The notes beneath the pieces are model-generated. The model did no database searches, had not been told where the DNA came from, and saw nothing but the letters and a program-made list of their open reading frames with translations. DNA of 64,000 bases, taken from the NCBI GenBank assembly GCA_029262995.1, contig JAJCYH010000026.1, positions 124,001 to 188,000 of the forward strand. Direction: 5' to 3'. Both the position numbers and the translations under genes were made by a program. The DNA comes from Saprospiraceae bacterium. Its GTDB lineage: Bacteria > Bacteroidota > Bacteroidia > Chitinophagales > Saprospiraceae. This document shows positions 1,300 through 41,599 of this stretch, piece by piece. The first letter of the stretch is position 1; every line of letters begins with the position of its first letter.

Positions 1300-2211
1300 T
1301 TGGATTGGAATTCATCAATATCGGGATTTAAAGCTTATTTGAAATTGGAAAGATCTATGTCAAAGCATTCCATAGAAGCATATATCCGAGATACTGGAAA
1401 GCTAAAAGAATACATTGAACTCTCAGAAACCAACAAGTCTCCAATTGAAATTGATTATGATGATATTCAGGCCTTTATATTTTACCTGAACAAGCTCGGT
1501 CTAGGGGACAGAACACAAGCAAGAATTATATCTGGATTGAGAGCATTCTTTAAATATTTGTTGCTTGAAGATCTTATCAACAATGATCCTACGGAACTTA
1601 TTGAAGGACCAAAGCTGAAAAGAAAAATTCCAGATGTCTTGAGCGTTGAGGAAATAAACCAAATCTTAGATGCCATTGATTTAAGCGAAGAAACTGGGCA
1701 TAGGAACCGGGCTATGCTGGAAACATTGTATGCTTGTGGTTTGAGAGTATCAGAATTGATAAATCTCAAACTATCAAACTACTTCCCGGAAAATGAATTT
1801 TTAAAAGTAGTAGGGAAAAACAATAAAGAAAGAATTGTTCCGATCGCTAAGGATGCCATCAATCATAATGATATCTATATAAATTCAATTCGAAATAAAC
1901 TAAGCATTCCCGATCAATTTACCGACTTTGTCTATCTAAATCGGCGTGCAAAGCCCTTAAGTCGAGTGATGATATTTACTATTATTAAGAATCTTACGGT
2001 AAAAGCTGGCATCAATAAGACAGTAAGCCCTCATACATTTAGACACTCATTTGCAACACACCTGGTAGAAGGAGGAGCAAACCTCAGAGCAGTACAGGAT
2101 ATGCTGGGACATGAATCAATTCTTACTACTGAAATATATACTCACCTCGATCAACGGTATCTTAGAGATACAATTTTAAACTTTCACCCTAGAAACAATC
2201 CTCAGCAATAA
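1300..2211 (+). CDS. xerD: Tyrosine recombinase XerD
   Basis: Site-specific tyrosine recombinase of 303 aa, expected to act with XerC at dif to resolve chromosome dimers. It has an N-terminal SAM-like core-binding domain (about 1-90) and a C-terminal catalytic domain. All catalytic residues are visible: R149 (ACGLRVSEL), K173 (VVGKNNKER), H245 and R248 ([11 protein letters not shown]), H271 (MLGHES) and the nucleophile Y280 (TEIYTHL). The start appears to be TTG: there is no in-frame ATG nearby upstream, and the family begins at about this point (xxWxxxIxxFKxYLKLERS). It stands alone with no phage or integron genes beside it, which favours the housekeeping role. Confidence 0.92.
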
Positions 2212-2251
2212 AAGGACGCTGAGTAAACGTTATTTTTGTGTCCAAATATCT

Positions 2252-3868
2252 ATGAAGAAACTATTTAAATATCTATTGTTTGGCGGGACCTTTCTAATAT
2301 ATGGCTCCTGTGCACAATTTGGAACTCCTCTGGGTGGGCCCCAAGACAAAGAACCACCATACATTATTAAAGAACTTTCAGAAGAAAACTTTCAGACCAA
2401 TTTCTCAAAAAAAACATTTGAACTGCATTTCAATGAATGGATCCAGGTAAGCAATCCATTAAAAGAAGTCATTGTATCTCCTCCTACAAGTTATCCCGTA
2501 AAAGTTTCGGCTCGAGGGAAAGCCGTAAAGTTTGAGTTTTCAGAAAAAGAGTTGCTTAGGTCAGATGCTACTTACCAAATAAACTTCGGTGACGCTATTA
2601 GGGATTTTACGGAGTCTAATGTCTATAAAAATTTCGTTTTCGTCTTCTCCACTGGAAATGTCATTGATTCCCTTAGCGTTAGTGGTACAATCTATGATGC
2701 TGTTACCGATAAGCCACGTGGAGAAATTGTAGTGTGTTTGTATGAAGAATTAACCGACAGTTGCTTTTTAAAAAAACGTCCATTTTATTTTACAAAAACG
2801 GATGCTTCTGGAAAGTATAAATTGAACAACATTAAATCCGATACTTTTCAAGTATTTGCCCTGAAAGACGAAAATGTAAATTACTATTTTGACCTCACAT
2901 CAGAAGAAGGAGGATTTTACGATAAGTTATTAGTGCTTAAAGACAGCAGCCTAATCAATATCGATCTTAAGATTTTCGATGAAGAGGATTCTCCCAGATT
3001 GGTAGAACTTAAACAAGCAATGACTGGATTGATTAAGGCATTTTTCAACCCTAAGGCATCCTCCGTTAATATTGCTGCAATCGGTGACAGTTCGGTACGA
3101 CTACATCATGAATTTATAAAAGACAGTTTATATATTTGGCACAATTCAATAGCAACTGACTCTATCCTATTATCCTTTAAATATGGTAGTCAATTAGATA
3201 CAATCAAACTTAAAAAAGCAAAACAAAATATCACGACTCGTCCATTAAGGTTGGATGCAACAATAAAGAAGGCCATAAGCTTTCATCAAGACGACTCATT
3301 AAAAATACTATTCAATCGCCCTCTTGCGAATGTTGAAAGTTCCAAAATTATATTAAAAGATACAAGCAATTCTTTTAGGGTTAAACAAGCCATCGTTTCC
3401 GGCAGACACTTAATCCTTTTAGCAGATAGCTTGATGCATTCAAGGGATTATAAACTTGAAATTTTGCCACAAGGCATAAAAGATTTTTATTCAATTTTAA
3501 ATGTTGATACACTTCGAGTTGGTTTAAAAACGTATAATCCTGAAGATTTCGGAAATATTGATTTAAATATCATCAACGATCAGGACACAAATTATATCCT
3601 CCATGTAATGCTTGGAAGCTCCATAATAAAAGAAAGCTATATCCAAGACAACAAAGTTTTGCAACTTAAAAAGCTGATAAAAGGAAAGTATACCATTAGA
3701 CTTACAGAAGATATTGATAGAAATAATAAATGGACCAGTGGAAAGGTCATTAATAAAAGAATGCCTGAAAGAATTAAAGAAATATCTTTGGAGGAATTAA
3801 AGGCAGGATGGGACCTAGAATTGGACATAATAATTAAAGATATTTTTAATGGAATTGAGAGCAAGTAA
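2252..3868 (+). CDS. Ig-like (Big_5-type) domain lipoprotein
   Basis: A 538-aa lipoprotein. The signal peptide ends in a lipobox with Cys20 (LIYGSC), followed by the GGPQDKEPP segment typical of Bacteroidota proteins with an N-terminal Ig-like (Big_5) domain. That domain spans about residues 35-130 ([11 protein letters not shown]...VFVFSTG). A carboxypeptidase-regulatory-like beta domain follows at about 140-230 ([14 protein letters not shown]). The function of the family is not established; a cell-envelope role is likely. Its end overlaps the start of lptB by 20 nt, so the two are translationally coupled. A TATTTTTG element at 2231-2238 could be a -7 box, but no clear TTTG lies at the right distance upstream. 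Confidence 0.8.
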
Positions 3869-4607
3869 TCTTGTAAAAAACTATGGCCTTCGATGTGTTG
3901 TCCAATCTGTTGATATTCATGTCAAACAAGGTGAAATTGTTGGTTTGCTTGGTCCCAATGGTGCAGGTAAAACAACAACGTTCTATATGGTTGTTGGATT
4001 TATAAAGCCCGATGGAGGAGAGGTTTTTCTTGACGATGAGGAAATCACGCAAGCGCCAATGTATAAAAGAGCGAGAAAGGGAATTGGATATTTACCCCAA
4101 GAAGCTTCCGTCTTTAGAAAACTATCTGTTGAGGATAATATTTTGGCCATTTTAGAGATGACAGATCTCAGCAAAGAAGATCAAAAACTCAGATTAGAAG
4201 AACTCATTTCAGAGTTTGGTCTTGAAACAGTACGTAAAAACATTGGAGATTCACTATCTGGCGGTGAAAGGAGGAGAACGGAGATTGCTAGGGCATTGGC
4301 TTCATCTCCAAAGTTTATATTGCTTGATGAACCCTTTGCCGGTATTGACCCAATCGCGGTAGAAGACATCCAATCCATTGTTCAAAAACTGAAGAAGAAA
4401 AACATTGGTATCTTGATTACTGATCATAATGTTCAGGAAACACTTTCAATTACAGATCGTGCTTATTTAATGTTTGAAGGTAAAATACTTCGTGCTGGAA
4501 CAGCTCAGGAACTTGCTGATGATGAGATCGTAAGAAAGGTTTATTTAGGAAAACATTTTGAGCTAAAGAAAAAAAATATTGACCTTGATGAAGACCCCAA
4601 CAATTAG
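3849..4607 (+). CDS. lptB: LPS export ABC transporter ATP-binding protein LptB
   Basis: ATPase of the Lpt machine that extracts lipopolysaccharide from the inner membrane and drives it across the periplasm. The 252 aa carry every ABC element: Walker [11 protein letters not shown] (35-44), Q-loop Gln84 ([12 protein letters not shown], an LptB hallmark), signature LSGGERRR (136-143), Walker B ILLDE followed by [10 protein letters not shown] (157-171) and the switch His193 (ITDHNV). It starts inside the preceding lipoprotein gene and overlaps the next small lipoprotein gene, so it sits in a compact operon. The permease genes lptF and lptG are not in the window. Confidence 0.96.
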
Positions 4608-4842
4608 AATCATACTTTACCTTTTTATTGTTGTTTTCAGTTCTTGTGGTGAATATGAAAACCTCGAAATCGACAAGGACGCTCGTAGGGTAGCAGATTC
4701 TTTGTTTAGAGCACAAAAAGATTCTTTGGTTGTCAGGTTTGACTCCTTGTGTGTCCAAAGCCATGATTCCCTTTATCAGTATTATTTCGACTCCCTTAAG
4801 CTTGTCAAGGCAGAGAAAATAAAACACTTGCTAAACAGATGA
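4588..4842 (+). CDS. Small lipoprotein, unknown function
   Basis: An 84-aa product with a signal peptide and lipobox (VVFSSC, Cys20), then a short charged helix-rich tail with repeated DSL motifs ([22 protein letters not shown]). I recognise no family. The ATG at 4588 lies inside the end of lptB. A TTG nine bases upstream would also be in frame, but the ATG gives a normal signal-peptide length. It overlaps the next lipoprotein by an ATGA. Its position after lptB suggests an envelope role, which is inference only. Confidence 0.6.
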
Positions 4843-5153
4843 AAAAAATTCTTTCAATAGCGGTGATTGTCTTTCTACTTTCTTGTCAAAATGAAGTTGT
4901 TGATAAACAGTCTTTGGTTAATAACTATTATCAACAAAGATTTGAAGCCCTAGCCTCTGAGAAAAAAGAAGTTTGCAAAGAAGAAATTATTAAGGAAATT
5001 CAAATTGCCATTGACTCACTTATAGACACATGGGTAAATGCAGAATTGGTTGATACTATTAATTTTCCTGGCAAACCAATTAAGCCTATAAAACCTCCTG
5101 CTATTATTAATGACTTTCAGAAGTTTAGTCTTGATTCCCTTGATATAAAATAA
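4839..5153 (+). CDS. Small lipoprotein, unknown function
   Basis: A 104-aa predicted lipoprotein with lipobox FLLSC (Cys16). The mature part is short and helical, with a proline-rich patch (GKPIKPIKPP) near residues 78-87. It is last in the lptB-linked operon, overlapping the previous gene by an ATGA, and ends 4 nt before the stop codon of the convergent dinB. No family recognised. The tight coupling and the lipobox support a real gene. Confidence 0.6.
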   Translation: MKKILSIAVIVFLLSCQNEVVDKQSLVNNYYQQRFEALASEKKEVCKEEIIKEIQIAIDSLIDTWVNAELVDTINFPGKPIKPIKPPAIINDFQKFSLDSLDIK

Positions 5154-28350: not shown

Positions 28351-30000
28351 TTAGCGCCTTTTCTTAAGCAAAACATATGAAGTAAGACTTTTGTCTCTGG
28401 TCCGAGGGTTTAAAAATTCAACACCGAAAGATTCCCCAACAAAATGATCAAAACGAGCAATTTCTTCATGGGTATAACTCATTCTGTTAATATATTCATC
28501 TACGCGTGATAAGATTAACTCATTTGTTTGATACTTAGTAAAATCATCATCTGAAGGTGTCCAGTTTTTCGTAACCTTACCATTTGTGTAAAACAAAACC
28601 CTATTAGAAACTGGTCCTAAAACAATAAGTTCGTCATTGGGATAATTCTTGTTAACATATGCTGCTGCTTTGTTATCTCCTCTATACGCTGCAATGGTTG
28701 GAAATATATTGATGCTTAGAATAAGATTGATAATGATTACAACAAATGCCGACATATAAATGCATTTATCCAGACCTTGCTTTATATATTTATTGAATAA
28801 AAACATGCCGACTAAGAAAGCCACTATTATCAAAACGTAAATATAAATAGCAACATTCCAAAGATAATAACTACCACCAATAAGCAACATGCCTAATCCA
28901 ATTTGAAGCCATTGGACAAGCTTTAAATATTTTAAACTGCCCCTACCAATTGCACTCTCAAAAGTGTTGGCTACAAGTATTGCATAGAAAGGAAATATAA
29001 TAGTGATATAATGAGGAAGTTGAAATTTGGAAACTGAAAACAACAATAACATAAGCATTGCACCAGAAAAACTATACATCTCTACTGCCAAAACCCTCTT
29101 GATGAGATTTCTGACTATTTGATATAAAGCAAAGTAAAGTGCTAGACACCAAGGGAAAAAAGCCCACAGCTGTGTATGCAGAAAATAAACAATGTCACCT
29201 TTAGCTCTAGTAATCGGTCCTTCGTTGATCAGTCTGGTAAATTGACTATCCCAGAAAAACCATTTTATACCAGAGACGTTATTCCTGCCAAAAACTAATT
29301 TATCTGGTTGGCTATCAAATTGAACCCAAAGCGAATAGACTTCAGGTAATAAAAACAAGACTATCAGAGCAAATATAAAAATCCAATACGGCTTAAAAAT
29401 GAATTTTAAACTTCTTGATTTGTACAACAAATGACCTCCAATCGCACCAAATATAGGCACTACTAGAAACAATCCTTTGGACATAATAGCACCTGCAGTG
29501 AACAAACTCATACACACCAAATGTATTGTCTTAGTTTCCTTTGTAAAGCGATCAAAATGAAAGACCGCAGCAATAATGAATAACATCAAAAAGGGTTCTA
29601 CCCGTCCTTCTGTGCCAGCCATAAAACTATACTGTGAGCAAAGAAGTATGAGTATGCTTAACCAAGCCGTTTTGTCATTGTAATATTGACGAGCAAATAA
29701 AAAACAATAGTAGCAAGCTAGAAAGAAAGCTATGGTATGTGGGAGAAGGTAGACGAATGAGTTTACACCAAAAATTTTAAAAAAGACGGCTATAATCCAG
29801 AATGGTAAATGTGGTTTATCCAACCAATCACGGCCTTCTACAAACAATGATAACCATTCGCCCGTATCTGCTATTTGAGCAGCTATTGTTGCAAAGAGTC
29901 CTGAATCATCGATATAGAATTCCAGTCGTAGGTTAAACAGGTATAATAATCCTGCCAAACCAATAAGATATTTGATTACGAGATGTTGTGAGCGTTTCAA
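28351..30000 (-). CDS. Glycosyltransferase family 39 (ArnT/PMT-like) membrane protein
   Basis: A 549-aa polytopic protein with about 11-12 hydrophobic helices. The first periplasmic loop holds the GT39-type DDSGLFATIAAQIADTGEW segment and EGRDWLDKPHLPFWIIA, as in ArnT, where an Asp-Glu region is catalytic. A soluble C-terminal part follows at about 450-549. It would transfer a sugar from a polyprenyl-phosphate donor to lipid A, glycan or protein on the periplasmic side. It is monocistronic, and the 210 bases upstream (30001-30210) hold nothing I can identify. Confidence 0.85.
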   Translation of the reverse strand: MKRSQHLVIKYLIGLAGLLYLFNLRLEFYIDDSGLFATIAAQIADTGEWLSLFVEGRDWLDKPHLPFWIIAVFFKIFGVNSFVYLLPHTIAFFLACYYCFLFARQYYNDKTAWLSILILLCSQYSFMAGTEGRVEPFLMLFIIAAVFHFDRFTKETKTIHLVCMSLFTAGAIMSKGLFLVVPIFGAIGGHLLYKSRSLKFIFKPYWIFIFALIVLFLLPEVYSLWVQFDSQPDKLVFGRNNVSGIKWFFWDSQFTRLINEGPITRAKGDIVYFLHTQLWAFFPWCLALYFALYQIVRNLIKRVLAVEMYSFSGAMLMLLLFSVSKFQLPHYITIIFPFYAILVANTFESAIGRGSLKYLKLVQWLQIGLGMLLIGGSYYLWNVAIYIYVLIIVAFLVGMFLFNKYIKQGLDKCIYMSAFVVIIINLILSINIFPTIAAYRGDNKAAAYVNKNYPNDELIVLGPVSNRVLFYTNGKVTKNWTPSDDDFTKYQTNELILSRVDEYINRMSYTHEEIARFDHFVGESFGVEFLNPRTRDKSLTSYVLLKKRR

Positions 30001-33405: not shown

Positions 33406-33680
33406 CTAAGTTTTCAAAATAAATTGAACTTTTAATTGTGTTGACAATAGTACCAGTTTATCTAATATCGCTTTCGGATCTTTATTCCTTTTAAAAAATT
33501 CATGGACATCGGTTTGTCTCTCAAAGTTTAGATAAAAAAAATGATATTCACTTCTGCCAAAAGTCTTGAGCAAAGTCGTTTTACCGATCTGGCGAGCAGC
33601 CAACAGTAATAAAGGTTTTCTTTTGGGTTTTGATTTTCTTGTTTCTAGATCTTTACATAAGTCTCTCTTAAATTCCGTTT
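33406..33680 (-). pseudogene. N-terminal fragment of an AAA_14 / DUF4143 ATPase
   Basis: About 90 codons in one frame match the start of the AAA_14-DUF4143 ATPase family (FKRDLCKDLETRKSK, KPLLLLAARQIGKTTLLKTF with the P-loop, YHFFYLNFE). A stop follows soon after (QFILKT), so 300 or more residues are missing. An in-frame TAA just upstream removes any good start codon. It is a relic on the left side of the toxin-antitoxin region. Confidence 0.65.
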
Positions 33681-33976: not shown

Positions 33977-34615
33977 ATGGATTTTAGAACGATGATAAAG
34001 GATTATTCTGAAGCTCCTATATCTAGACATTTAATTTTAGAATTACTAAGTGATTATCGGAGTCCAAATGATAAAATTAGTGAGCTACTTAAAAGCAAAG
34101 AACTTATTTCTATTAGAAGAGGGCTTTATATAACTGGACCAAAAATGGACTTGCCCTCACCAGAACCATTTCTAATAGCTAATCACCTTAGAGGACCGAG
34201 CTATGTGTCATTAGAGTCTGCATTGTCTTATTGGAACATGATACCAGAACGGGCCTATGAAATAAGTTCAGTAACCATAAAAACTTCAAAAATATATAAA
34301 ACTCCCGTTGGCCGATTTAGTTACCAACAATTAAGAATTCCTTATTATTCTTATGGAATAAAAAACATAGAATATTCAGCAAAGCAAACAATGTTGCTTG
34401 CCTCACCTGAAAAAGCTTTGTGTGACAAAGTTATATTAACACCCACAATTAATCTTAGAAGCATCAAACAAACTAAAGACTTTTTAATGGAAGATCTTCG
34501 TATGGATAGTGAAGTATTAAGCACACTAGATACGGAAGTTATTGAATTGTGGATTAAAAATGCTCCTAAAAAAAGTAGTCTAAAAATGCTTATTAAAACA
34601 CTTATAGAAATATGA
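33977..34615 (+). CDS. abiEi: Type IV toxin-antitoxin antitoxin, AbiEi family
   Basis: A 212-aa antitoxin. The N-terminal winged helix (ISRHLILELLSDY ... ISELLKSKELISIRRGLYI) and the C-terminal domain (EPFLIANHLRGPSYVSLESAL, SPEKALCDKV) follow the AbiEi pattern. It autoregulates the operon and counteracts the AbiEii nucleotidyltransferase without direct binding in known systems. The frame is open further upstream, but the promoter lies inside that extension, so ATG 33977 (MDFRTMIKDY) is preferred. Its stop overlaps the toxin start (ATGA). Confidence 0.88.
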   Translation: MDFRTMIKDYSEAPISRHLILELLSDYRSPNDKISELLKSKELISIRRGLYITGPKMDLPSPEPFLIANHLRGPSYVSLESALSYWNMIPERAYEISSVTIKTSKIYKTPVGRFSYQQLRIPYYSYGIKNIEYSAKQTMLLASPEKALCDKVILTPTINLRSIKQTKDFLMEDLRMDSEVLSTLDTEVIELWIKNAPKKSSLKMLIKTLIEI

Positions 34616-35241
34616 TAAAAGAGTGGATAGCGGAATATAAACCTCAAAATGAAGAAGAAATATTATCTGCATTACGAGAAATAATGCAAGAAATTACTTT
34701 AGCAGGTTTATCAAGAACTGATTTTTTTGAGAAAGCAGCTTTTTATGGAGGAACCGCTCTCCGAATATTTTATGGGTTGGATAGATATTCAGAAGATTTG
34801 GATTTTTCTTTACTTAAACCTGATTCTAATTTTTCAATTGAGCCATATTTCAATTCCATTCTCGATGAATTTAAGTCCTTGGGACTGACGGTTAGTATTA
34901 AAAAAAAGAGTAAACAAACAGCTATTGATTCTGCTTTTCTGAAAGCTGAAACCATTTGGCAAGAAATTGTACTTGAACACATCATCAAAGAAACTGGGGT
35001 GCGTTCTAACAAGACTTTGAAGATAAAAATAGAAGTTGATCGAGAACCTCCATTAAATTTCAAAACCGAAGAAAAGTTATTACTCCGTCCTTTTTCATTT
35101 TACGTGAAATGTTTTACTAAACCAAGTTTATTTGCTGGTAAAATGCATGCCCTACTATTTAGAAAGTGGAAAGATAGAGTCAAAGGAAGGGATTGGTATG
35201 ACTTAGAATGGTATATTAAAAAAGGAATTCCTTTGGATTAA
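34612..35241 (+). CDS. abiEii: Type IV toxin AbiEii nucleotidyltransferase, C-terminally truncated
   Basis: The N-terminal nucleotidyltransferase part of AbiEii is present: FYGGTALRIFYG (46-55) and SEDLDFSLL (metal-binding D62 and D64), then KIEVDREPPLNF and the SLFAGKMHALLFRKWKDRVKGRDWYDLEWY motif. The 209-aa product ends at IPLD, where family members continue with a helical tail and usually reach about 280-300 aa. The following bases are IS21 istB sequence. The catalytic core is intact but the missing tail probably inactivates or alters the toxin. Confidence 0.8.
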   Translation: MIKEWIAEYKPQNEEEILSALREIMQEITLAGLSRTDFFEKAAFYGGTALRIFYGLDRYSEDLDFSLLKPDSNFSIEPYFNSILDEFKSLGLTVSIKKKSKQTAIDSAFLKAETIWQEIVLEHIIKETGVRSNKTLKIKIEVDREPPLNFKTEEKLLLRPFSFYVKCFTKPSLFAGKMHALLFRKWKDRVKGRDWYDLEWYIKKGIPLD

Positions 35242-35468
35242 AACCCCTAGATCAGATCAACCGGCATGCATTGATGGAAATAATTGAAGACAGACATGGT
35301 AAACGATCTACTTTGATTGCTTCTCACCTTCCCGTTCAACAATGGCATGAAATAATAGGAGAAAATACTATTGCAGATGCAATTTTGGATCGTATTGTTC
35401 ACAGCTCTCACCGTATAGATCTCAAAGGAGAATCTATGAGAAAAAAAAAAGACAAAATTATTAATTGA
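35231..35468 (+). pseudogene. C-terminal fragment of IS21-family helper ATPase IstB
   Basis: From FGLKPLDQINRHALMEIIED through DRHGKRSTLIASHLPV, ENTIADAILDRIVHSSHRID and LKGESMRKKK the frame is the C-terminal third of IstB. The P-loop part and istA are gone. The fragment begins inside the abiEii stop region (shared CTTTGGATTAAA), so the insertion or deletion joint coincides with the toxin's end. Confidence 0.85.
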
Positions 35469-35519
35469 AACAGTTAAATTAAAGCAAAATTTAGACAACT
35501 TTTTTGACTTGACTTTGGG

Positions 35520-35567
35520 TGGTCACTTTCCACCGGAATACCCTGGTCAGTTTCATCGGAATATGCA
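35520..35567 (+). mobile_element. Right end of an IS21-family element
   Basis: Two related 20-bp repeats, TGGTCACTTTCCACCGGAAT at 35520-35539 and TGGTCAGTTTCATCGGAATA at 35544-35563, followed by TGCA. Repeated TGGTCAxTTTC..CGGAATA blocks at the ends are typical of IS21-type elements, which terminate in CA-3'. The 52 bases between istB and the repeats hold nothing else. The left end is not in the window. Confidence 0.65.
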
Positions 35568-35615
35568 TATGACCTTGATGTCGAAGAATAATTATGTAAT
35601 CAAAAAACTAAAACC

Positions 35616-36857
35616 ATGGAGCTTAAACTGTATAAAGATATAGGCTCTGAAAATCTAGATAAATCACTAGCATCTGTTGCAGAGTTAATTAAAATATATT
35701 ATGTCTACTATGGCAGGAATGCCTGGAATGCAACTTGGGTTACCCAGTATACAAATGGTTGTATGCATACCTCATTAGAGTCAGCAAAGTCATTTGCTGA
35801 GAGAGGTAGAAATCAAGGTAATGTGTTTTACATAAATGAGTTACCTGCTTTACTGATTAAATCCAATAAAGGGTTTTTGATAGTGACAGAGATGAACTCC
35901 CAATATCCCCTAGATTCTTATTCTCATACATACGATGTCTATGAAAGCTATTATGAATATGGTCCATGTGAAACAATTCTTACCTGTGCAAAAAATGTTA
36001 AACTAAATGTGATAGAGGATTCATTTCGTCCATTTTCTGATAATGGGGAAAATTATAAGAGTAGGAATTCAGTAATAACATTAGGGTTAGAGAGAATGGG
36101 TGTATTATTTGAGAAATTCTACAAGAATAAAAGTCAAAGATATACCTCTTATTCAATGGGAGGAGACTATAGGTTGGGGTGGTCCCAAAACAAATTAGAT
36201 CGTAATCCAGTATACATAAAAAGTATAATCAGGCTTTTTGAGATTTATAGTTTAAAATACGTACCACTTTATAATAAAGTTATAAGCTGGGTAAGTCGTT
36301 ACAAGTTCGACTATCTGGCAAATTCACAAAAGCTATTAAGTATATCTGATGAAATATTTGATGAAATAAAATCAAGAAGTTATCCTTTAAAAAAGAACAT
36401 CGAAGTATTGGTTCATGAAAACATCTTTGACGATACAGTTTTAAATGATATGAATAGGATATCAAAAAAAGTAAAGATGAATTACATCTTCAATGTGGAA
36501 GAAGTTCCTAGAAAAGACAAGGTCCTCTTCACTTTAAAATACCCAATCAACTTTTGGGAAAAACTAATGGAAACACGTTTTAATGAAGATGTTTTCGAAT
36601 CATTAAAATTGCTTTTAATAAGGACCAAATTAAAGATGGATGATAGACGAAGAAAAAATTACAGTATATGTCTAAAGTTCAGTGATGGTTATTTTAAAGA
36701 AAGAATATTCTATTTCCACGGCAGAAGTGATAAAGTTGATTGGTTGCGTGCTTTGAATATGCTTTATCTAAAAATTCCTGTGTTTTTTGATTCGGAATAT
36801 CCAGATCACTTTGGAGCAATATATGAAGAAAACGGTTATTGGGTTTATAAGTCCTAA
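35616..36857 (+). CDS. Hypothetical protein of the accessory region, 413 aa
   Basis: I recognise no family. The protein has no signal peptide or membrane helix and is rich in Tyr, Lys and Asn. The N-terminal part (about 1-170) is mixed alpha/beta; the middle (about 205-300) is helical (SIIRLFEIYSLKYVPLYNKV); the C-terminal part holds beta strands with paired positives (DRRRKNYSICLKFSDGYFKER). It begins 49 nt after the IS21 end and is followed after 91 nt by the DruH-like gene on the same strand. Possibly part of a defence-type module, by location only. Confidence 0.6.
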   Translation: MELKLYKDIGSENLDKSLASVAELIKIYYVYYGRNAWNATWVTQYTNGCMHTSLESAKSFAERGRNQGNVFYINELPALLIKSNKGFLIVTEMNSQYPLDSYSHTYDVYESYYEYGPCETILTCAKNVKLNVIEDSFRPFSDNGENYKSRNSVITLGLERMGVLFEKFYKNKSQRYTSYSMGGDYRLGWSQNKLDRNPVYIKSIIRLFEIYSLKYVPLYNKVISWVSRYKFDYLANSQKLLSISDEIFDEIKSRSYPLKKNIEVLVHENIFDDTVLNDMNRISKKVKMNYIFNVEEVPRKDKVLFTLKYPINFWEKLMETRFNEDVFESLKLLLIRTKLKMDDRRRKNYSICLKFSDGYFKERIFYFHGRSDKVDWLRALNMLYLKIPVFFDSEYPDHFGAIYEENGYWVYKS

Positions 36858-36948: not shown

Positions 36949-38268
36949 ATGGCCAACAACTTACTTAAAACTCCTGGTGATTGGTTAAGGCAGTTCTATT
37001 TTAAAAGGAATTTACCTGAACCCACTGGCAATCCATTATACACTTATAAAATAAGTAATACTGAGTATATAACTCTAAAACATGTTCTCCAGACAGATTC
37101 TTATTATAAAAATCCCCAATGGAAACAATGTTTCGTAATGTATGCCGCAGAGTGGTGGAGGAGACAATATCAAGGAGGGGCTTGGAAGTGGGACCCTATT
37201 TTATCAAACATTCAAAAGTCAAGTATTCCTACTGGTGATCGTAATAAGATTGTCGAAATTGGTTTAAACTGTTGGAAAAGAGATGTTATTAAAACAGCTT
37301 ATGGAAGAGAACTTCTTGGTTCAATAATTATTGAAGCAGGATTGCCTCAAAGTTTGCTGACAATGAATAACTATATAAATATTATTATTGAAGAATTATA
37401 TCAGGAATTGGGAAGCATTTCTTCAACCAATCAGGACATCATTGATATTGTAGAATACATTTGCGACAAAAATGGACTCCCGAATATTTACAGGTCAGAA
37501 GAGTTTTATAGATTACTTCTAAATTTTGTTGATCCAATAGTTAGGCTATCTGATAAATATTCTCTCTCAAAAGAAAAAGACCCAGTAAGACATCTGGATT
37601 CAGAGTACCAAGAATGGCGCTCACTTTTTCCTATACGTATTAATGAAAATGCAGAAAGGTTTTTAGATAAGCTTATATCAGACGTTTCTCAATCAATAAC
37701 TAAATACCAAAATGACATATCTATAAAATATCGATTAAAAAGTTTTGGCTCAACTTGGACTTGTAGTGCATATTTATCTATAAAAAGTGGTGCTCACCAC
37801 CACCATAATTTAGGTCTCTTAGAAGAAGAATATAATTCACTATCTAATAAAACGACATTGCTTATTAACATCGGAGCTTCCGCGTCCAATACAACACACG
37901 TCTTTAAGCTAGAGAGTAAAAGCCAACTAAGAATAGATGGTCTTGACAATTATAAGATTACCTCAAATATAGATCAGCTTGCTGAAATAAGTGTGTCATT
38001 GTTTGATGATAAGTCCCTTGATGAATATCTACTCTCGTCTGAATCAGAAATAGATTGGGATTTATCTAATCCGTTGATATTTTCAAAAAAAGATAATCAT
38101 GAATCTTGGGAGTTAATTTCAGCTGGAAGTTGCACATTAGCAATTGATGAATACATTCTATTAACCAAAGAAGCAATAAGTGAAGATCAAATATTAAGCA
38201 ACAAGCTTACTCCTATTAAAAACCATTCTGAGTCATTTTTTTTATACAAAACCTTCAATAACTATTGA
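36949..38268 (+). CDS. Protein resembling the N-terminal part of STY4851/ECs_5259 (DruH-like) family
   Basis: The 439-aa product opens with the order typical of that family as I remember it: TPGDWLRQFYFKRNLPEPTG, PLYTYKISNTEYITLK, then FVMYAAEWWRRQYQGGAWKWDPIL (about 60-85). Family members, one of them DruH of type III Druantia defence, are around 1000 aa and lie beside a very large DruE helicase. Here the protein is less than half that size and no helicase is present. A His-rich stretch (GAHHHHN) lies near residue 283. It may be a truncated orphan, or a short relative with its own role. Family call from memory of motifs, not a search. Confidence 0.45.
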   Translation: MANNLLKTPGDWLRQFYFKRNLPEPTGNPLYTYKISNTEYITLKHVLQTDSYYKNPQWKQCFVMYAAEWWRRQYQGGAWKWDPILSNIQKSSIPTGDRNKIVEIGLNCWKRDVIKTAYGRELLGSIIIEAGLPQSLLTMNNYINIIIEELYQELGSISSTNQDIIDIVEYICDKNGLPNIYRSEEFYRLLLNFVDPIVRLSDKYSLSKEKDPVRHLDSEYQEWRSLFPIRINENAERFLDKLISDVSQSITKYQNDISIKYRLKSFGSTWTCSAYLSIKSGAHHHHNLGLLEEEYNSLSNKTTLLINIGASASNTTHVFKLESKSQLRIDGLDNYKITSNIDQLAEISVSLFDDKSLDEYLLSSESEIDWDLSNPLIFSKKDNHESWELISAGSCTLAIDEYILLTKEAISEDQILSNKLTPIKNHSESFFLYKTFNNY

Positions 38269-38621
38269 AGTATGATATGTTCAAATTAGATCTCTGACTA
38301 AAAATGAGATTGATTATACGTGTCCTTAATGGTAAGTTCATAATTGGAATATTATGATACAATAACACCTTTGATAAACCGAGCATGTTTGTGAACCGTC
38401 ATGGGGAACAAATATTATTTGTAATTTAGAGAAGGTAGAATCAAATGGCATCTTTGGTAAACACGAATTAACTTTTGAGTTAAAATAACAATAGTCTATT
38501 AATCAGAGTAGCGTATAAAGAGGAAGTTTCTACATGATTATTTCATACTAGAATATTATGAAGAAAGAAGTGGTTGATATAAACTTGTTACCCAAAAGCT
38601 AAAGAGCGAATATTTACTTAT

Positions 38622-38702
38622 TTCCATATTCGAATATGGAATATACATACATAAATGGTTGTAATACTGTATTTTAAATTGTACTATTGCATATTCGAAT
38701 AT
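38622..38702 (+). promoter_or_regulatory. Paired palindromic operators of the HTH-nucleotidyltransferase module
   Basis: TTCCATATTCGAATATGGAA (38622-38641) is a perfect 20-bp palindrome. Its core ATATTCGAATAT recurs perfectly at 38691-38702, eight bases before the ATG at 38710. The site centres are 65 bp apart and flank the promoter. Two identical core sites around a promoter, directly before a gene for a winged-helix protein, suggest self-repression. Confidence 0.75.
38658..38689 (+). promoter_or_regulatory. Probable promoter of the HTH-nucleotidyltransferase module
   Basis: GTTG ending at 38661 and TACTATTG at 38682-38689 with a 20-base spacer fit the TTTG / TAnnTTTG pattern with one mismatch in each box. 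The start point would fall near 38695, inside the second palindrome. Confidence 0.5.
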
Positions 38703-38709
38703 AGAATAT

Positions 38710-39246
38710 ATGAAGCCTAAGCAAATCTTTATATCTCCATTAGACATACTAATTTTATTGAAAATTATCTCTTTGGGAGATAATAAATGGTACCAAATTG
38801 ATATCGCAGAATCACTTGACATTAGTCAATCTGAAGTTAGTAAGTCCCTGAAACGTCTAAAAACATCATGGCTTCTTGCTCCAAATAGTTCAATAGTAAT
38901 TATGAGGGAAAATGTTTTAGAATTTCTTCGGTATGGTATTAAGTATATTTTTCCTCAATGGCCTGGATCAATTGTCAGAGGAATACCAACTGCTCATAGC
39001 GCCCCTGTATTAAATAATGAAATCCTCAGCACTGAAAATTATGTCTGGCCATATGCAAAAGGTCAAGTAAGAGGTCAAAGTATTATTCCCCTATATCCAA
39101 CTGTACCAAAGGCAAGTAATGACGACAAAAAACTATATGAGTTGCTCGCTCTAATTGATGCAATAAGAATAGGGAATGCAAGAGAAAAGGAATTAGCTTA
39201 TAAAAAATTGAAAAATAGAATAATCCTTGGAGAATATAACAATTAA
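38710..39246 (+). CDS. HTH regulator / putative antitoxin paired with a nucleotidyltransferase
   Basis: A 178-aa protein with an N-terminal MarR-like winged helix (ISPLDILILLKIISLG, YQIDIAESLDISQSEVSKSLKRL, about 8-60). The C-terminal half has GIKYIFPQWPGSIVRGIPTAHS, a pattern I associate with small regulators next to nucleotidyltransferase toxins. Its last 20 nt overlap the nucleotidyltransferase gene. Palindromes directly upstream suggest it represses its own operon. Confidence 0.72.
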   Translation: MKPKQIFISPLDILILLKIISLGDNKWYQIDIAESLDISQSEVSKSLKRLKTSWLLAPNSSIVIMRENVLEFLRYGIKYIFPQWPGSIVRGIPTAHSAPVLNNEILSTENYVWPYAKGQVRGQSIIPLYPTVPKASNDDKKLYELLALIDAIRIGNAREKELAYKKLKNRIILGEYNN

Positions 39247-39919
39247 TAAAGACTTAGTTAAGGAGGTTGCAAATGCTCTTGAAGAGCTCAAAGAAATAAT
39301 GGTTTTTGTGGGAGGTGCAACTATAAGCCTATATACTGATGACAAAGCTGCTCAAGAAATACGACCTACTAGTGATATTGACATGACAATAAGACTAGCA
39401 CATAACTATGCTGAATGGGCTAAAATTAATGAAAGACTCTCAGAATTAGGATTTTACCCAGATCCAGAAGGACATGCAATTTGTAGTTATAAATACAAAA
39501 ACATTAGTGTAGATATAATGCCATCAGAAAGTGGTCATATGGGTGAAGCGAACAAATGGTATAAAGTCGGATTTAAAAACATACAAACAACATATATTGA
39601 TAACGAAGAAATATCAATATTAACAGCTCCATGTTTTTTAGCGACCAAATTTGAGGCATTTAAAGACAGAGGAACTGATTACAGAACAAGTCATGATTTT
39701 GAAGATATAATTTATGTTATTGACAACAGAACTACAATAGTGGAGGAAATAGAAAAGGATGAGAAAGAAATAAGAGATTTTTTAAAACATGAATTAAACA
39801 AAATACTTGAGATGTCAAATACTTATGAAATTCTATCATGCCATATTCATCCATTAGTGCTTGATGACAGATATCCAATACTTGAGGAAAAAATAAAGAA
39901 GATTGTTCATTTAGACTAA
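39227..39919 (+). CDS. Nucleotidyltransferase (AbiEii/AbiGii toxin-like)
   Basis: A 230-aa protein of the nucleotidyltransferase superfamily: FVGGATISLYTDD (GG at 29-30), then RPTSDIDMTIRL with metal-binding D50 and D52, and SVDIMPSE as a possible third acidic position. A helical region (ALATKFEAFKDRG-type: FLATKFEAFKDRGTDYRTSHDFEDI) follows, as in minimal toxin-type nucleotidyltransferases. The start is taken as TTG 39227, inside the HTH gene; no nearer ATG precedes the GG motif. It is probably the toxin or effector of a two-gene module. Confidence 0.75.
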   Translation: MENITINKDLVKEVANALEELKEIMVFVGGATISLYTDDKAAQEIRPTSDIDMTIRLAHNYAEWAKINERLSELGFYPDPEGHAICSYKYKNISVDIMPSESGHMGEANKWYKVGFKNIQTTYIDNEEISILTAPCFLATKFEAFKDRGTDYRTSHDFEDIIYVIDNRTTIVEEIEKDEKEIRDFLKHELNKILEMSNTYEILSCHIHPLVLDDRYPILEEKIKKIVHLD

Positions 39920-41524: not shown

Positions 41525-41528
41525 GAAG

Positions 41529-41599
41529 AGGTCGCGAGCGGATTCGAACCGCTGTACAAGGTTTTGCAGACCTCTGCCTAACCGCTCGGCCACGCGACC
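41529..41599 (-). tRNA. tRNA-Cys (GCA)
   Basis: A 71-nt cloverleaf on the minus strand: acceptor GGTCGCG / CGCGACC, D-arm with AGCGGTTAGGC, anticodon loop CTGCAAA giving anticodon GCA, T-arm GCGGTTCGAATCCGC, and discriminator U, as expected for tRNA-Cys. The 3' CCA is not encoded. Confidence 0.95.

Follow-up and report, generated by a model that had tools for sequence, protein, structure and literature searches.

A type III Druantia locus is required to carry, beside druH, the gene for DruE, a YprA-like helicase-nuclease, and no such gene stands beside the druH sequence described here. In a 2026 preprint (PMC13192584), DruH is proposed to be an infection sensor with a dimerisation-dependent nuclease activity and DruE to be the helicase-nuclease effector, and a stable complex of the two proteins was not seen. 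A second report (PMC13316683) describes an interaction between DruH and DruE and a defence system that needs both proteins; DruH alone inhibits the growth of M. smegmatis, and DruE neutralises that effect. According to the same preprint, residues 257-464, 465-631 and 632-748 of DruH form Ig-like domains, N672, Y733, D735, R1064 and K1067 are used by an ATP/Mg site, and alanine changes at 14 positions abolished defence, some of these positions having been tested only in pairs or triples. A short form of DruH is named in no title or abstract opening of the literature that was found on Druantia, DruH/DruE, YjiT or STY4851/ECs_5259.

The window, by which we mean the whole 64-kb stretch of DNA that was analysed, contains an open reading frame of 439 amino acids whose product looks like the first third of this known anti-virus protein, and which has the appearance of a relic rather than of a new, smaller system.

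The DruH fragment and its break point

The reading frame occupies positions 36949-38268 of the plus strand in the ORF list of the window and begins with ATG. Its product matches the NCBIfam model NF038336 (YjiT_fam, STY4851/ECs_5259) with 252.6 bits and an E-value of 7.7e-75, above the curated cut-off of 150 bits, and the alignment places residues 12-411 on profile positions 1-400 of 1090, which falls short of full-length coverage. Ten DruH models from PADLOC, which were used for this check in place of those of DefenseFinder, match the fragment as well (best E-value 3.7e-54, residues 8-411 on model positions 11-415 of 1100), and phmmer aligns residues 11-399 with residues 12-401 of the solved DruH chain 9tud_A at an E-value of 9.4e-21. 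Judged by these sequence comparisons the resemblance to DruH is far above the chance level, and the homology is a direct observation. The original prediction, which had assigned the protein to the STY4851/ECs_5259 (DruH-like) family at under half the expected length and had proposed an HMM search for similarity to DruH, was right on both points. The result bears on annotation hygiene, because a fragment that passes the NF038336 cut-off can be named YjiT or DruH even though nearly two thirds of the protein and its partner are missing.

The homologous part of the frame lies at 36949-38181 (plus strand, residues 1-411) and comprises the N-terminal helical region, approximately residues 1-250, and after it part of the first Ig-like domain. 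The N-terminus of DruH, as represented by 9tud_A and NF038336, aligns with residues 11-411, including the pattern F-x(2)-Y-A-A-E-W-W-R-R ... W-x-W, and the fragment keeps residues known to be functionally important in that part of DruH; it differs in ending at about residue 413 of 1119, before the remaining Ig-like scaffold and the ATP/dimer site, and in having no DruE. The numbering standard for this comparison was the DruH of two enterobacterial plasmids (L090 and L092), in which all 26 of the residues taken from PMC13192584 are present at their published numbers. When aligned with 50 further DruH proteins (47 of them distinct), the window protein tracks this standard as far as residue 413-415 and then ends, a break point that is directly visible in the alignment. 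Since the limits of the first Ig-like domain are given as 257-464 in that preprint, the break lies inside the domain, and all five residues of the ATP/Mg dimer site lie in the region that is absent. Past the break, the frame continues into a tail that is unrelated to DruH, 28 codons long and closed by a stop (38182-38268, plus strand); the alignment with full-length DruH ends at 411-415.

An AlphaFold2 model built from a 48-row alignment scores above 85 in 20 of the first 25 ten-residue blocks, which make up the N-terminal helical region, is weak in the Ig-like part, and has a pLDDT below 50 over residues 412-439. The low values over the tail are weak evidence, because this part of the protein is covered by no relative. 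The model has no Foldseek match at an E-value of 0.001 or below. As a separate observation, when the predicted helical segment encoded at 37339-37707 (DruH residues 131-253) was compared with the VIA-align library, which ends in April 2026, the best rows were N-terminal helical domains of COMMD proteins (Z 7.2, rmsd 3.7, 101 residues aligned, which is below the level that the tool treats as meaningful), with several further COMMD entries; 9tud was not among the best rows listed.

The reading frame of the fragment has neither internal stops nor frameshifts, and the N-terminal domain that carries a functional surface, DruH residues 63-137, is present. At the 14 loss-of-function positions the fragment agrees with enterobacterial DruH at nine, and the median of 48 further DruH proteins is the same, with values from 6 to 11. 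G136, which belongs to the 14 and is the first glycine of GGLP, is alanine in the fragment and glycine in all 50 of the other proteins (47 distinct). Of the columns conserved at thresholds of 95, 90 and 80%, the fragment has lost 2 of 21, 3 of 29 and 7 of 42, which ranks it third, fifth and fourth of 51 proteins, among the highest losses; enterobacterial DruH of the tested type loses more (5 of 21, 5 of 28 and 13 of 44). Taken together, the clean frame, the median agreement at functional positions and the column ranks do not clearly indicate a long decay, and as far as the sequence goes some function may have been retained. Most of the Ig-like scaffold is lost, as are the ATP/dimer interface and the partner protein, and the fragment therefore most likely gives no defence; its product is most likely inactive and probably has no present function.

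The missing remainder and DruH loci elsewhere

The remainder of the locus was sought downstream of the break, in the window and in the rest of the genome, and its absence is likewise observed directly. The approximately 700 missing residues of DruH have no match within the 64-kb window. When two DruE proteins encoded elsewhere in the phylum served as tblastn queries, the lowest E-value was 0.28, and with an enterobacterial DruE added to the queries there were no matches at 1e-3 in the window. The match at 0.28, between a C-terminal stretch of DruE and positions 36108-36602, was taken as chance. In the genome as a whole no DruE-like gene was recognised, the search returning only two weak matches, approximately 75-100 residues in length, within frames that are 472 and 420 amino acids long, and the family model finds this DruH fragment alone.

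The fragment is followed by an AT-rich stretch (38269-38709) in which no forward frame is open throughout, and the G+C content over 38190-38709 is 27.5%. Neither translation nor tblastn revealed a match to the DruH C-terminus or to DruE in these approximately 440 bp, and an 88-aa frame on the minus strand (38556-38822) overlaps both the AT-rich stretch and the gene that follows it, described below as PDC-M21A. The junction DNA matches itself and otherwise gives only short, weak matches in the genome, and a search of 38150-38760 for repeats found no repeat or insertion sequence end exactly at the junction. A signal scan counted 14 promoter-like sites, compared with 21.3 in shuffled sequence, and five terminator-like sites, compared with 1.8; all five are on the minus strand and within the 439-aa frame and the 413-aa frame that precedes it.

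The usual arrangement of such loci is a further direct observation. A scan of genome contigs from other genomes with the DruH alignment yielded 52 DruH loci, all of which have DruH-matching sequence beyond residue 600, and DruE is detectable at 50 of them; at the remaining two, L044 and L050, the DruH frame is cut off by the end of the contig. At three loci (L070, L079 and L081) the DruH frame at the best match is short, yet DruH sequence continues to positions 944-1121 and DruE is present. A plasmid search with the fragment gave 19 records, none of which spans 80% of the query at a single place, and no DruH relatives of the fragment were found in viral contigs or in phages. Another genome, G493, encodes a diverged DruH-like protein of 924 amino acids, cut by the contig end (L015:3470-6241; PADLOC DruH, E-value 2.2e-5), which comes after a 345-aa regulator with WYL/WCX domains and may represent a remote branch of the YjiT family.

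The 439-aa frame is very probably the 5' remnant left by a deletion in an ordinary type III Druantia locus of the druH-druE kind. A deletion or rearrangement would have taken the last 700 or so codons of druH and the whole of druE, approximately 6 kb, and would have fused druH at about codon 411 to unrelated AT-rich DNA, the presumed source of the 28 codons and stop. The deletion is an event that we infer and have not seen. DruH without DruE might burden the cell, a burden that would disappear once the C-terminal two thirds of DruH were lost; any order of these losses is speculation. The prediction that no DruE neighbour is present is borne out by the empty searches with the three DruE queries. 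Two ways in which the idea of an unusual short protein could fail had also been named, a frameshift and a deletion of the remaining parts of a standard Druantia locus. The frameshift is rejected, because matches to the DruH C-terminus and to DruE are absent downstream in every frame, while the deletion has become the best reading.

The 413-aa neighbour and other readings

The original prediction had also raised the idea that the fragment and the protein encoded ahead of it in the same direction form a different, shorter system. The ORF list confirms the arrangement: a gene for a protein of 413 amino acids, of unassigned family, lies at 35616-36857 on the plus strand and is separated by 91 bp from the 439-aa frame. 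Searches of Pfam and NCBIfam at an E-value of 1, and of PADLOC at 10, gave no match for this protein; its PHROG match is non-significant (E-value 0.051), the comparison with solved structures gave no relative and a single match at 1.6, and a fold predicted without an alignment has a mean pLDDT of 30 and is useless. The only relatives found are on plasmids, in three Vibrio records, as a protein of 214 amino acids; none were found in viral contigs, in phages, or in genome contigs searched with exact octapeptide patterns, an insensitive method. The 214-aa protein of Vibrio plasmid NZ_CP046164.1 is 38% identical to the 413-aa protein over residues 25-208 of the latter, but it lacks the C-terminal half and has no DruH annotated nearby, and its gene is one of a series of small genes that we read as resembling an integron cassette array.

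In a two-gene defence system, the N-terminal part of DruH would act as the sensor or DNA-binding component and the 413-aa protein as the effector. The common strand, the short spacing and the other defence-type genes of the region are in keeping with such a pairing, as are the open frame of the fragment and its nine matches among the 14 functionally important positions. We nevertheless consider it very improbable, because the two genes were not found together elsewhere. No relative of the 413-aa protein (E-value of 1e-3 or below) occurs in the stretches around the 52 DruH loci, 34 of which are at least 20 kb long. In a sample of 395 genomes from the phylum, four match the DruH fragment and one, the genome under study, matches the 413-aa protein. 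In samples from the family, the DruH family is present in 4 of 398 genomes (two of them above the cut-off) and the 413-aa protein has a match in 2 of 388; the genome under study is the only overlap, and the other 413-aa match is spurious, since it falls in a chorismate-binding enzyme. The proposed survey of co-occurrence thus found no genome with both genes except this one in the samples searched. In addition, the Vibrio relatives sit among unrelated small genes, the break in DruH falls within a domain by the limits in PMC13192584, and the tail is unrelated to DruH, so the claim of a shorter system is not supported. Equally little credence is given to the related idea of a minimal Druantia-derived system, in which the N-terminal domain of DruH would persist by itself, sensing infection or serving as a decoy, and the 413-aa protein would be a new effector.

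It is also highly unlikely that the fragment acts as a solo gene in a role of its own, for example as a decoy or regulator that works through the N-terminal domain of DruH alone. What speaks for such a role is that two of the four matching genomes in the phylum sample have an N-terminal stump, with no DruE in the DNA that was examined. The second of these, G112, has a DruH stump of 366 amino acids (L009:7819-8919) that resembles the fragment in its DruH N-terminus and phylum, and the 15 kb fetched, of which approximately 4.7 kb lie past the transposase gene next to the stump, gave no match to DruE or to the remainder of DruH. The ends of the two stumps differ, however, since the fragment has 411 homologous residues and the G112 frame has 366 and stops against a gene for a DDE transposase; the G112 stump is an independent one with a different end.

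That a complete Druantia locus was misjoined in assembly is scarcely credible, since, although the genome is a draft (3.77 Mb in 32 contigs, 97.7% complete), the fragment lies approximately 162 kb inside the 299-kb contig of which the window is a part, and searches of its other contigs found no DruE and no trace of the missing part of DruH.

Genomic setting and nearby genes

The druH fragment lies in a stretch of 36.5 kb (5154-41683) that is absent from the matching place in one congener. In this genome (G640, same genus), the blocks corresponding to 1300-5153 and to 41684 onward are approximately 3.7 kb apart, compared with 36.5 kb in the window, and 29 window ORFs from between the blocks that were used as queries have no match (E-value 1e-8) in a 16.5-kb stretch of G640, the only one of six congener stretches fetched to contain both flanking blocks. 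A gene for tRNA-Cys (41528-41599) stands at the border of the 36.5-kb stretch, and a tRNA-Cys is near the same conserved gene in four of the six congener stretches. The border and the difference in length together look like the mark of a gene-turnover site, and, with its break point and its lack of DruE, the druH fragment would be a clear example of the loss of a defence locus at such a site beside a tRNA gene. A protein of 549 amino acids encoded at 28351-30000 is found in none of four congeners.

Another gene is cut upstream of the 413-aa gene. An AbiEii-type gene (34612-35241, plus strand), which matches positions 1-198 of a 270-position PADLOC model and retains about three quarters of it, runs directly into a remnant of an IS21-type element (35242-35600, plus strand) that consists of the C-terminus of IstB and, as judged by eye, the right end. 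The IstB peptide, typed by eye, matches positions 166-235 of 238 of the Pfam model IstB_IS21 at an E-value of 9.2e-22, and a second IstB remnant, 76% identical, is present on another contig (C25:318-491). Such decay close by is in keeping with a deletion in druH, as is the stump in G112. On the minus strand at 33429-33670, before AbiEi, a remnant identified by eye resembles the P-loop region of an ATPase and may be one more disrupted gene of this stretch.

Downstream of the AT-rich stretch, two overlapping ORFs at 38710-39919 match the PADLOC candidate-system models PDC-M21A (E-value 6.3e-50) and PDC-M21B (E-value 2.4e-52), the latter ORF also matching Pfam AbiEii. A paralogous pair is present on contig C25 (L107:1313-2528; E-values 1.2e-46 for PDC-M21A and 3.5e-43 for PDC-M21B), and a search of 60 genomes found relatives of PDC-M21A in 8, this one counted; no literature on PDC-M21 was found. 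Directly 5' of the PDC-M21A start are two palindromic repeats of 24 nt (38622-38645 and 38687-38710) that are 92% alike and share the self-complementary core TATTCGAATA, which occurs at these two sites and nowhere else in the window; they are possible operators for the PDC-M21A HTH protein.
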